Below, one piece after another: positions 9,434-20,344 of a stretch of DNA of 39,074 nt. How positions within the stretch are numbered: the stretch's first letter is position 1; the number at the start of each line of letters is the position of its first letter. This DNA is from a virus, in the IMG/VR virus record IMGVR_UViG_3300038682_000138, positions 1 to 39,074 of that record, one strand, 5' to 3'. Made by a program: the position numbers and the translations under genes. The notes under the pieces are model-generated. The model was given only the letters and a program-made list of their open reading frames with translations. It did no database searches and was not told the origin of the DNA.

Positions 9434-9480
9434 ACCTTGATTCTTCGCCTAAGTACGGTTCGGTTTCTCGTCCCTACCGT

Positions 9481-9552
9481 TTCTCTATTTTTCCTTGAGA
9501 GTATGTGCGATGCCTCTCGCGGTTCTCTATTTTTCCTTGAGAGTATGTGCGA
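9481..9552. repeat. Tandem 30-bp direct repeat
   Basis: 9481-9510 and 9523-9552 are identical over 30 bp, with a 42-bp pitch (about four helical turns). Each copy holds TCTC...GAGA flanking a T-rich core, a small inverted repeat. A TATAAT (9558-9563) follows the second copy but with poor -35 spacing. It could be a regulator or initiator binding site. Confidence 0.85.
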
Positions 9553-9674
9553 GATCCTATAATGAACAGCGAACTTCCCGATTCCGGGGGTAGCCCCCAA
9601 TATATTGACCGAGAGTCAGGAAACCGACCTAAGTACGGATGACACGCTAATAAGAAGGAACGCGCGCGCACCTT

Positions 9675-9721
9675 TTATCCAACGACCTTTACGTAAAATC
9701 TACGTAAAGGTCGTTGGATAA
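9675..9721. repeat. Perfect 21-bp inverted repeat with 5-bp spacer
   Basis: Left arm 9675-9695 and right arm 9701-9721 are perfect reverse complements, separated by AAATC. The arms meet at a TACGTA-N5-TACGTA pair (9690-9706), and an ACCACCATAA repeat abuts the right arm. In RNA or single-stranded DNA it would form a strong hairpin. No T-tract marks it as a terminator. Confidence 0.9.
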
Positions 9722-11375: not shown

Positions 11376-11401
11376 ACAAACTACGTAAACCACCATATAT
11401 T
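11373..11401 (+). promoter_or_regulatory. Strong sigma70-type promoter with embedded repeats
   Basis: TTGACA (11373-11378), a 17-bp spacer, and TATATT (11396-11401). The spacer holds a single TACGTA and an ACCACCATA repeat, so any protein bound to those motifs would occlude RNA polymerase. It drives the small gene at 11463. Confidence 0.7.
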
Positions 11402-11427
11402 AAATGATATGGTGGTTTTCGTAGTTT
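11378..11427. repeat. Near-perfect 20-bp inverted repeat
   Basis: Arms 11378-11397 and 11408-11427 differ at one position and enclose 10 bp. Each arm contains ACCACCATA and part of TACGTA. It spans the -10 region of the promoter and the likely start of transcription, giving a candidate operator or leader hairpin. Confidence 0.85.
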
Positions 11428-17176: not shown

Positions 17177-17809
17177 ATGGAAGTTAACCCAAACAATCTT
17201 ATCACGGAAGAAGTAACCTTCAGCTACGTAAACCTTTTCACCCCGCGACCTAACGACAGTGGGCTCCTTAAGTATTCAGCTTGTCTCCTTCTTAATAAAG
17301 ACAACAAGAAGGAGAAGGCCAGATGGGACGCGGCTGTTGAAGCGGCTATTCAGAAGGGCATCAAAGCCGGGAAGTTCACTGCGGCTCAGCGTCCTATTCT
17401 CAAGCTACCTATTCGTGACGGGGACAAAGAGCTTGAGATGGAAGTTAAGAAGGGCGACGAGTATAAGAACCGATGGTTCATAAATACCGGAGCACACCAC
17501 ACCAACAGAGAGGGCGCTGTACTTCCTCCTCCTGAAGTAACGAAACCACAGGGCGGAATCGCAGTTCCTATCCTTGATCAGACTGAGTTCTTCAGCGGTT
17601 GTACTGGCCGGGCTATCATTTCCTTTTACGCGTTCAACGAAGGCGGGTCAAAAGGTATTGCGGTAGGCATTAACGGCGCGTATAAAATGAGTGAAGGTGA
17701 AAGGCTTGACGGCAGGGTTAAAGCGACATCAGCGTTCGCTTCATTTGCGGAAGCCGACTCTGAGGCTGACCCATCACTTGACCGCGGGACCGATAGCGAT
17801 TTTGAATAG
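17177..17809 (+). CDS. DUF2815 ssDNA-binding protein (Enc34-type)
   Basis: A 210-residue protein from ATG 17177 behind AGAGGAG. The order of motifs matches the DUF2815 / phage Enc34 ssDNA-binding family: VTFSYVNLFTPRP at the N-terminus, YSACLLLNKDNKK, W..AVEAAI..G, LPIRDGDKE, KNRWFINTGA, F.SGCTGRAIISFYAFNEGGSKGIAVGINGAYK, and an acidic C-terminal tail ending in DSDFE. That family has an OB fold and an acidic tail used for partner contacts. The position between DUF2800 and DNA polymerase is the usual one. Confidence 0.87.
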   Translation: MEVNPNNLITEEVTFSYVNLFTPRPNDSGLLKYSACLLLNKDNKKEKARWDAAVEAAIQKGIKAGKFTAAQRPILKLPIRDGDKELEMEVKKGDEYKNRWFINTGAHHTNREGAVLPPPEVTKPQGGIAVPILDQTEFFSGCTGRAIISFYAFNEGGSKGIAVGINGAYKMSEGERLDGRVKATSAFASFAEADSEADPSLDRGTDSDFE

Positions 17810-17817
17810 TAACATTA

Positions 17818-17834
17818 TACGTAAATAATACGTA
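17818..17834. promoter_or_regulatory. TACGTA-N5-TACGTA operator-like pair
   Basis: The 11-bp-pitch pair is directly followed by a perfect ACCACCATA palindrome and precedes the small gene at 17888. Confidence 0.7.
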
Positions 17835-17862
17835 AACCACCATAAAATATTTTATGGTGGTT
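17835..17862. repeat. Perfect 28-bp palindrome of ACCACCATA units
   Basis: AACCACCATAAAAT and its exact reverse complement abut without spacer. This is the most symmetrical member of the second dispersed repeat family. A weak intergenic terminator or operator role is possible. Confidence 0.9.
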
Positions 17863-17887
17863 AACCTTAACAAACCGGAGGTACGAC

Positions 17888-18067
17888 ATGCAGGTAAAAG
17901 AAATAGAAGTTAAGTACGGAGTCACTAAGAATCTTGGGAACTACGAGTCCCTACGCATGGACTATGGCGCGAGAGTTCAGTTGGAAGACGGCGAGAAACC
18001 CGCGGATGTCATTGATAAGACCCGTGAGTACCTCAAAGAAAAAATGAAAGCCGATATAGGTATGTAG
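17888..18067 (+). CDS. Conserved-type 59-residue phage protein
   Basis: ATG 17888 follows CGGAGG. It encodes MQVKEIEVKYGVTKNLGNYE and a helical tail. The YG.T.NLGNYES pattern is one I recognise from small unnamed phage proteins near replication genes. A Y-G-x-T-x-N-L-G-x-Y core followed by a beta strand and a helix suggests a compact alpha/beta fold. Function is unknown. It lies between the ssDNA-binding protein and DNA polymerase. Confidence 0.7.
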   Translation: MQVKEIEVKYGVTKNLGNYESLRMDYGARVQLEDGEKPADVIDKTREYLKEKMKADIGM

Positions 18068-18074
18068 TACATAT

Positions 18075-18232
18075 AGATAGCGGGCTCGGCTCTTCTGATT
18101 ATGCAATAGTGCAGAGCTCAGGGTAATACGGTTTATTTTAACTTTATATTTTTAGCCTTTTTGAAAAGGTTAGATTACTATAGAAGTTAGATTCAGCTGA
18201 TCATTTTCCGCCGGGTGTTTAGCCCGCTATCT
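18075..18232 (+). ncRNA. Tandem structured element, copy A
   Basis: A 12-bp closing stem (AGATAGCGGGCT 18075-18086, AGCCCGCTATCT 18221-18232) encloses a block at 18101-18132 that is 29/32 identical to copy B. A local stem, CTGA (18095-18098) with TCAG (18118-18121), becomes ACGA/TCGT in copy B, a compensatory change. A CCTTTTTGAAAAGG hairpin lies inside. It may be a structured RNA, or a single-strand initiation or origin element. No known class is recognised. Confidence 0.65.
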
Positions 18233-18252
18233 CTAAGTAGTACATAAGATTT

Positions 18253-18350
18253 ACAGCTCCCCTACGATAATGCAATAGTGCAGAACTCGTGGTAATACGG
18301 TAGCACATCGAATTTAATCGTTGATTGTTGGGAAGGACCGGGGGAGCTGT
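18253..18350 (+). ncRNA. Tandem structured element, copy B
   Basis: The closing stem ACAGCTCCCC (18253-18262) with GGGGAGCTGT (18341-18350) is unrelated in sequence to copy A but at the equivalent position. The shared block is 18270-18301, containing ATGCAATAGTGCAGA and GGTAATACGGT at identical spacing. The inner stem is ACGA (18264-18267) with TCGT (18287-18290). It ends 23 bases before the DNA polymerase start. Confidence 0.65.
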
Positions 18351-18373
18351 CATTATAAATAGGAGGTAGCACA

Positions 18374-20344
18374 ATGGCAAGGCCAATAGTACATTTCGAT
18401 AAGGAGGTCGCATCAGGGGCCCCTATAGAGTGGGGCAGGCACCAATTTCTGACAGATAAACAAGCTCACTTCCAATGCATGGCGTGGTCTATTAACGCGA
18501 TGCCCACCAAATTGTGGTTGCCGGGGATGCCTATCCCTGCGCCTTTCTTAAGTCCTAAAGATTATACATTCTCTGCGTTTAATATCCAGTTCGACCAGTT
18601 AGCTATCAACATTCTCGGCCCTCGCTATGGGTTCAAGGAGATCCCATTAGAGAATTGCCAAGATGTCATGGCGCTTGCCGGTAGGTATGGGCTACCCCAG
18701 TCTCTTGAAAAATTAGGTAAGGCGTTAGGTGTTAACCTCGGTAAGTTGAAAGACGGCAAGAGATTAGTAAAGCTGTTCTGTTCTCCCCCGTTTCATAATC
18801 CTAAGAAGGATAAGATATGGAACAATCAGGAGTTTCATAAGCTGTGCGCGTACTGTAAGCGTGACGTTGATTCTATGAAAGAGATCATATCTAAGCTACC
18901 CGCGTCGCAGTTGTCCGCCTCAGAGCAGAACGTTTGGCAAGTGACAGCCACCATAAATAAGCGAGGCGTTCCGGTAGATCATGCGGCAGTCGTGCGCATT
19001 AATCAGGTTATCGACCATTATCGGGCAACAGAAACGAAGAAGGTTCCGCTAATAACCGACGGCGAGATTAACACCATCGGCCAAAGGGCTAAGATTATAG
19101 ATTGGTGTAGCGACAGAGGCGTAGAGTTAGAGAACCTGCAAGCGGCTACGGTGGACGAGGTTTTAAAGGGGTTCCACGTGGAACCCTTTGATAATAAAGT
19201 GTATGAGCTATTAAAACTACGTCAGGTGTTGGGTGGTGCCGCAGTCAAGAAGTATGTCCGGCTACAGAATATGACCCTTAACGGTAGGATTCATGACAAC
19301 CTCCGCTATTATGGGGCGAGCACCGGCCGTCCTACTGGAGGCGGGTTTCAAATGCTCAACCTACCCAGGGCTACTATCAAACCGATAGGTGAAGAGACGC
19401 CGGACGACGCAGTTCAACGTGTAATAGGTACGTTCTATGATACTACGGTTCTCAAAGACCCGGCCATTCTCGAGCACGCTAAAGCTCTTGTTCGCCCTAT
19501 GTTGAAAGCGCCAGAAGGTAAACGTATTATGGCGGCTGACTGGTCGTCGATAGAATACATATTACTGATGTGGTTCGCCGGAGAGACTGAAAAGGTGGAG
19601 AGATTCCGTAATGGCTTTGACCCGTATATAGATTTCGCTACAAAAATATTTCAGGTGGAGTACGAGTACGTTAATAAAGATCAACGACAACAGGCTAAGC
19701 CTCCGGTACTCGGCGCAGGGTATATGTTGGGCGCTCGGGCGTTGGTTGAGTATGCTTCAGGATACGGGGTTATCCTAACTCTCGAAGAGGCTCAGGTTCT
19801 CGTTAACTTATACCGATCAGAAAATCCTAAGGTTAAGAAGTCTTGGTACGCGCTTAAGAACATGGCTCAATATGCGGTTAGGAATCATGGGGTTCCATAT
19901 AGAACCCATAGGTGTGAGTTCAAAGTTATATACGACAGATCGGGGAGGCACTGGCTGAGGTTTACTATTCCATCTGGTCGCAGTTTGTATTACTGTGAAC
20001 CGAAGATGGCTTCTGGCCCCTATGGCCCCGCCATTAAGCATAAGGGCGTCGACCCCAATAAGAAGATATGGACGTGGATTTATCTAAAGCCGCAGAGGAT
20101 AATTGAGAACTGTATTCAGGCTCTCGGAAGAGACGTAATGAACGGTGGCCTCGATAGGCTAATCAAGCATGGGTATAACCCGATCGTTCAGGTATACGAT
20201 GAGGCCGTTATGGAAGAGCCGAAAGAAGGGATACAGCTACGATATGAGCAGGCTACAAAGTTGATGTGTATACCACCGACGTGGGCCCCGGACTTACCGC
20301 TATTTGCTGAAGGGTATATAGCTAAACGATATAGAAAAGGATAA
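18374..20344 (+). CDS. Family A DNA polymerase with 3'-5' exonuclease
   Basis: A 656-residue replicative polymerase from ATG 18374 behind AGGAGGT. Exonuclease: D9-x-E11 (HFDKE), NIQFDQLAI near residue 75 and YCKRDVD near residue 165 give the DEDDy set. Polymerase: motif A AADWSSIEYILLM (about 387-400), motif B RQQAKPPVLGAGYMLG (about 437-452, with the R...K...G..Y core), and motif C VQVYDEAVM (about 603-611), where Y replaces the more usual H of HDE. Residues 265-272 (KGFHVEPF) are encoded by a perfect parS-like palindrome in the linker between exonuclease and polymerase domains. Context: between structured elements and VRR-NUC. Confidence 0.93.
   Translation: MARPIVHFDKEVASGAPIEWGRHQFLTDKQAHFQCMAWSINAMPTKLWLPGMPIPAPFLSPKDYTFSAFNIQFDQLAINILGPRYGFKEIPLENCQDVMALAGRYGLPQSLEKLGKALGVNLGKLKDGKRLVKLFCSPPFHNPKKDKIWNNQEFHKLCAYCKRDVDSMKEIISKLPASQLSASEQNVWQVTATINKRGVPVDHAAVVRINQVIDHYRATETKKVPLITDGEINTIGQRAKIIDWCSDRGVELENLQAATVDEVLKGFHVEPFDNKVYELLKLRQVLGGAAVKKYVRLQNMTLNGRIHDNLRYYGASTGRPTGGGFQMLNLPRATIKPIGEETPDDAVQRVIGTFYDTTVLKDPAILEHAKALVRPMLKAPEGKRIMAADWSSIEYILLMWFAGETEKVERFRNGFDPYIDFATKIFQVEYEYVNKDQRQQAKPPVLGAGYMLGARALVEYASGYGVILTLEEAQVLVNLYRSENPKVKKSWYALKNMAQYAVRNHGVPYRTHRCEFKVIYDRSGRHWLRFTIPSGRSLYYCEPKMASGPYGPAIKHKGVDPNKKIWTWIYLKPQRIIENCIQALGRDVMNGGLDRLIKHGYNPIVQVYDEAVMEEPKEGIQLRYEQATKLMCIPPTWAPDLPLFAEGYIAKRYRKG
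19171..19184. repeat. parS-like palindrome, perfect core, inside DNA polymerase gene
   Basis: GTTCCACGTGGAAC with AAAGGG/CCCTTT flanks, in frame as KGFHVEPF. A much weaker look-alike (GTTCCATATAGAAC, 19892-19905) lies later in the same gene and may be chance. Confidence 0.95.

Follow-up and report, generated by a model that had tools for sequence, protein, structure and literature searches.

The region upstream of the family A DNA polymerase gene (polA) of an uncultivated tailed phage of bacteria contains a tandem structured element. The element is genuine and well above chance, and the evidence for it consists of two copies within one genome, so that claims must remain limited. The two units are plausibly, though still tentatively, explained as a tandem aptamer-like mRNA leader, in which the binding of a factor tunes polA expression or processing of the message.

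Genomic context of the element

The window, i.e. the whole stretch of DNA analysed, comprises the 39,074 bases of an uncultivated virus record. Genes for the terminase, head, connector and tail are located on the minus strand, and the early replication region occupies the plus strand at ~10.7-26.9 kb. In the latter region, genes for a DUF2800 protein, an Enc34-type ssDNA-binding protein (ssb) and a 59-aa PHROG-5189 protein are followed by the element and polA, and then, in this order, by genes for an endonuclease, a ligase, a VapE-like primase-helicase and an SNF2-type helicase (Table 1). The small ORF and polA are separated by 306 nt, in which both units (copy 1, 18075-18232; copy 2, 18253-18350) are contained, and the stop codon of the small ORF falls within the outermost portion of the copy 1 closing arm. 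The flanking genes are co-directional and the element sits directly ahead of the polA ribosome-binding site. A coding origin of the element was rejected, since stops break every frame across it. No terminator-like site was found at the element, and ARAGORN predicted neither tRNA nor tmRNA genes.

Table 1. Coordinates of the two units and of the neighbouring genes in the window.
Feature	Position	Strand	Evidence or remark
Enc34-type ssDNA-binding protein (ssb)	17177-17809		
Small ORF, 59 aa, PHROG 5189, function unknown	17888..18067	+	phrog_5189 E 1.7e-10
GTAGTACATA, copy 1 5' flank	18064..18073	+	exact repeat of 18237-18246
Copy 1 closing stem P1, 5' arm AGATAGCGGGCT	18075..18086	+	
Copy 1 inner stem P2, 5' arm CTGA	18095..18098	+	
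Copy 1 invariant hairpin TGCA-ATAG-TGCA	18102..18113	+	
Copy 1 inner stem P2, 3' arm TCAG	18118..18121	+	
Copy 1 invariant segment GGTAATACGGT	18122..18132	+	
Copy 1 variable domain, 88 nt	18133..18220	+	A+U-rich hairpin, unalignable to copy 2
Copy 1 closing stem P1, 3' arm AGCCCGCTATCT	18221..18232	+	
GTAGTACATA, copy 2 5' flank	18237..18246	+	
Copy 2 closing stem P1, 5' arm ACAGCTCCCC	18253..18262	+	
Copy 2 inner stem P2, 5' arm ACGA	18264..18267	+	
Copy 2 invariant hairpin TGCA-ATAG-TGCA	18271..18282	+	
Copy 2 inner stem P2, 3' arm TCGT	18287..18290	+	
Copy 2 invariant segment GGTAATACGGT	18291..18301	+	
Copy 2 variable domain, 39 nt	18302..18340	+	
Copy 2 closing stem P1, 3' arm GGGGAGCTGT	18341..18350	+	
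AGGAGG, polA ribosome-binding site	18361..18366	+	sequence; 10 nt past last stem, outside stem
DNA polymerase, family A (polA)	18374..20344	+	PF00476 E 7e-16; phrog_17 E 1e-77

Other repeats also occur in the window. Inverted hairpins ACCACCATA...TATGGTGGT are repeated between early genes (11389-11416, 17836-17861 and others), and a paired motif, ACGTAAA-(4 nt)-ACGTAAA, has five intergenic copies in the early region, at 9691, 11826, 12828, 14264 and 17819. The sign of the GC skew changes near 10 kb and 27 kb, with no switch at 18 kb. A direct repeat, TCTCTATTTTTCCTTGAGAGTATGTGCGA, is present in two copies at 9480-9554, in noncoding DNA between divergent gene blocks near a GC-skew switch, and this region is a candidate origin or control region.

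Conserved core, covariation and probable duplication

The two units share 36-nt cores (18097-18132 and 18266-18301) which are 89% identical. A sequence-only reading of the same DNA had pointed to a 32-nt block common to both (18101-18132 and 18270-18301), and upon recomputation this block is indeed identical at 29/32 positions. By contrast, the outer stems and the inserts of 39-88 nt cannot be aligned between the copies. The P1 stems that close the units are unrelated in sequence yet perfectly paired, as that reading had also stated: P1 comprises 12 perfect base pairs in copy 1, where it belongs to a 26-nt arm with 88% complementarity, and 10 in copy 2. In 1000 dinucleotide shuffles of the flanks beside the core, an equally long perfect closing stem was never obtained for copy 1 (0/1000) and was obtained twice for copy 2 (2/1000). 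The covariation proposed for the inner stem, CTGA/TCAG versus ACGA/TCGT, holds as well. The 4-bp P2 stem has two fully compensated pairs between the copies, C-G to A-U and U-A to C-G. When 7 random substitutions were introduced into 41 nt in 20,000 trials, a stem of 4 bp or more with two compensated pairs resulted in 0.055% of the trials (p about 0.0006).

GTAGTACATA is directly repeated ahead of each unit (Table 1), so that the pair resembles the product of an ancient tandem duplication spanning some 173 nt. Although the stems and third arms can no longer be aligned, the core and the pairing have been preserved, which implies selection on a specific core displayed on a stem. Identity of 89% in the core amid unalignable stems and loops points to sequence-specific recognition, suggesting that something recognises the core.

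Predicted fold and strand

As RNA, the coding strand folds far better than shuffled sequences: the z-score is -6.2 for copy 1 and, for copy 2 trimmed to its stem, -3.25. The closing stem, P2 and the TGCA-ATAG-TGCA hairpin are predicted in both copies. The invariant UGCA/UGCA hairpin, with 4 bp and the loop AUAG, has a predicted probability of 0.6-0.9 in both. The earlier description of ATGCAATAGTGCAGA and GGTAATACGGT as unpaired and unchanged has to be amended accordingly: both are unchanged between the copies, but the TGCA/TGCA arms of ATGCAATAGTGCAGA form the 4-bp hairpin, and GGTAATACGGT is predicted to be only partly single-stranded. A further stem, P3 (CGGU/RCCG), is possible in both copies; it is thermodynamically disfavoured (0 and 0.12) and we do not claim it.

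Read as RNA, copy 1 has a less favourable fold on the opposite strand (z -4.45) than on the coding strand. On that opposite strand, copy 2 no longer adopts the shared P2/hairpin fold and has a different stable fold of its own (z -4.18). Thus, the shared P2/hairpin architecture is found in both copies on the coding strand only. Together with the better coding-strand folding of copy 1 and the co-directionality with the replication operon, this leads us to favour an RNA on the coding strand over a single-strand origin. The sequence-only reading had left both options open, and it is the structured RNA that is favoured. As single-stranded DNA, copy 1 folds better than shuffled sequences on both strands, which makes a DNA function possible, and the element does reside among replication genes. 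Nevertheless, a DNA-level element, i.e. a single-strand initiation or protein-binding site for replication that would act through extruded or lagging-strand hairpins, is highly improbable: no skew switch coincides with the site, it is missing from relatives whose replication genes are the same (see below), and the RNA fold of the coding strand is stronger and consistent.

Relatives without the element

The nearest phage that has this region (L003) encodes a polymerase, an ssDNA-binding protein and a small-ORF homologue that are 64%, 69% and 35% identical, respectively, to those of the window. The gene order is the same, only 53 nt separate the small ORF from polA, and there is no match to the covariance model described below in the whole 39.8-kb record. 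In six described phages whose polymerases are more distant, the corresponding gap measures 2-99 nt, again with no model match. Scans with the flanking proteins retrieved one syntenic relative (L003/L185), and terminase scans retrieved two close relatives, represented by short fragments with no model match. Since seven other phages lack the element upstream of polA, it does not generally accompany the polymerase gene. Its absence from the relatives points to an addition of about 250 nt in the lineage of the window rather than to an ancestral part of the operon.

This distribution might also be expected of a recently acquired tandem-duplicated insertion that is passively carried, with the pairing reflecting past function elsewhere. 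Every relative examined is without the element, and GTAGTACATA is present on both sides of copy 1. However, a core identical at 89% with the rest unalignable and both stems compensated implies that selection has lasted longer than would be expected of a recent arrival, although such selection may have acted elsewhere. We consider passive carriage quite unlikely.

A near-perfect palindrome, AAGGGGTTCCAYGTGGAACCCCTT, is also present in the window, in L003 and in two fragments. It has 23 copies across the whole 39 kb of the window (1192, 2134, 2888, 6824, 8683, 9190, 9421, 10652, 11988, 12717, 13920, 14201, 15831, 17143, 19172, 20895, 22706, 24566, 26098, 26944, 29139, 32059 and 35895), compared to 0 in 20 base shuffles. 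The copies are chiefly intergenic, with some within polA, the primase gene and others. There are 24 copies in the L003 record, five in fragment L015 and two in L016. The centre of the palindrome, GTTCCACGTGGAAC, resembles bacterial parS sites, which raises the possibility that phages of this group have an array of ParB-like sites or of repeated hairpins.

Searches for homologues and known RNA families

A search with a covariance model had been suggested in the sequence-only reading. The 41-nt model built from the copies scores 64 bits on each of them; elsewhere in the window its score does not exceed 10.4 bits. No credible homologue was found in viral contigs, GTDB genomes, phage records or plasmid records, where close siblings may still exist, since the collections may omit records very near the window genome. 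The exact core pattern has no match in viral contigs, and matches to looser patterns in these contigs were dismissed, being without conserved pairing and, for the most part, apparently within genes. Of two pattern scans over 84,980 prokaryote species, one gave nothing and the other four unrelated matches. At the DNA level, there is no match in phage records, and those in plasmid records are weak and insignificant. The best of the matches to looser patterns lies in a tail-type protein gene of one viral lineage (L004-L009) and is identical to copy 1 at 34/41 positions. This gene was considered as a source gene, and the match was judged to be due to chance: it scores 38 bits, with an estimated E-value of tens over the viral collection (the collection size being assumed), the frame is not kept, the P2 pairing is absent, and no homologue of the tail-type protein is encoded in the window.

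Consistent with the earlier statement that no known RNA class is recognisable, Rfam 15 gave no match at the gathering threshold in the whole window, and within 17811-18373 everything up to E = 10 was at chance level. This null result takes in the AbiF motif RF03085 and other catalogued phage-associated RNAs. Two local resemblances were also rejected. The BoxA/nut-like sequence GCTCTT is found only in copy 1 and is therefore not conserved. The run GGTAATACGG is also present in the 530 loop of 16S rRNA; the likeness covers 10 nt only, with the remainder unmatched, and is taken as chance.

It is conceivable, if somewhat doubtful, that the units represent a new class of phage structured RNA (a decoy, a ribozyme or a tandem aptamer) with the core GAU-N-AUGCAAUAGUGCAGA-N-CUC-NN-GGUAAUACGGU, which this phage lineage would have gained as a unit in order to control its replication operon or to protect it. 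As for ribozymes in particular, the size, the junction-like layout and the combination of a fixed core with variable stems resemble small ribozymes. Each core would be a small junction closed by P1, and tandem self-cleaving copies would release the polA message. However, no Rfam ribozyme model matches, permissive thresholds included, and the sequence offers no arguable cleavage site, so that a pair of ribozymes of an unknown type appears very unlikely.

Comparison with known phage and bacterial RNAs

Parallels in position are the autogenous operators of T4 gene 43 (DNA polymerase) and gene 32 (SSB), in which structured RNA likewise leads a phage polymerase or SSB gene (PMC3014915). The gene 43 operator is a single small hairpin plus sequence over the ribosome-binding site, whereas the two large domains described here end upstream and do not overlap this site. 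Moreover, the gene 43 operator is bound by a different type of polymerase, and the sequence of the element is unrelated to it.

The AbiF antitoxin RNA (RF03085) is also a phage-borne RNA with two successive conserved structured motifs of 33-36 nt (PMC12373285). However, its motifs are 19 nt apart and differ in sequence, whereas the cores described here are 133 nt apart; the RF03085 model does not match, and the next gene is polA rather than AbiF/Abi_2. Similarly, type III toxin-antitoxin RNAs (ToxI, AntiQ) consist of a repeated unit of ~36 nt with internal structure. Their repeats are contiguous and followed by a toxin gene, whereas the copies of the element are separated, with starts 169 nt apart, and followed by polA.

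AbiF and type III RNA antitoxins, with their repeated motifs of 33-50 nt (PMC12373285), provide a model for trans-acting small RNAs. Under such a scenario, excised or stable RNAs would occupy a host protein, for example as a decoy or an antitoxin mimic against a host defence RNase, with the location in the operon being incidental. A 36-nt core repeated within strong closing stems, a lineage-specific gain beside a conserved operon and independence of the polA start are all consistent with this. Set against it are the lack of a match to RF03085 or any other Rfam family, the non-contiguous arrangement of the units (169 nt apart), the lack of a toxin-like gene among the adjoining genes, and the lack of an evident promoter or terminator of the element's own. 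On balance, trans-acting RNAs are unlikely.

Tandem riboswitches, such as those for glycine, have two similar aptamer domains in one leader. The element is alike in having two aptamer-like domains, but it matches no such family and has no visible switching platform.

A putative tandem leader of the polymerase message

The tandem leader explanation, which we prefer, draws on the unrelated yet perfectly paired P1 stems, the two compensated pairs of P2 and the lack of an open frame across the element. In T4-type phages, translation of DNA polymerase and SSB is controlled via structured leader RNAs (PMC3014915), a precedent for both the place and the purpose of the element. Conversely, the seven other phages with the ssb-polA order have nothing similar. 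Furthermore, the ribosome-binding site of polA lies outside the last stem and no obvious alternative fold hides it, so that no switch is visible.

According to this explanation, the mRNA of the replication operon (ssb, small ORF, two copies of the element, polA) would contain a tandem structured RNA encoded by this region. Each unit would be a closed domain in which a long P1, free to vary in sequence, displays a fixed recognition core made of P2 with the UGCA hairpin and of GGUAAUACGGU, the third arm being variable. The units would have been duplicated in tandem and then diverged, with the pairing and the core retained. A protein or another factor would most likely bind both cores on the mRNA and, once bound, could tune translation, processing or stability of the polA portion of the message. 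The analysis establishes the two copies, their pairing with its compensatory changes, the conserved core, the position and the absence from relatives; that the element is transcribed with the operon, that a factor binds it and that polA is affected are inferences.

At present, the element stands as an orphan motif of one uncultivated genome. Because comparison of its two diverged copies already separates fixed from free bases, it is directly testable by mutating the 36-nt core. If the element is a functional RNA, it would constitute a new structured RNA class at a place where phages are known to control the dose of their polymerase.
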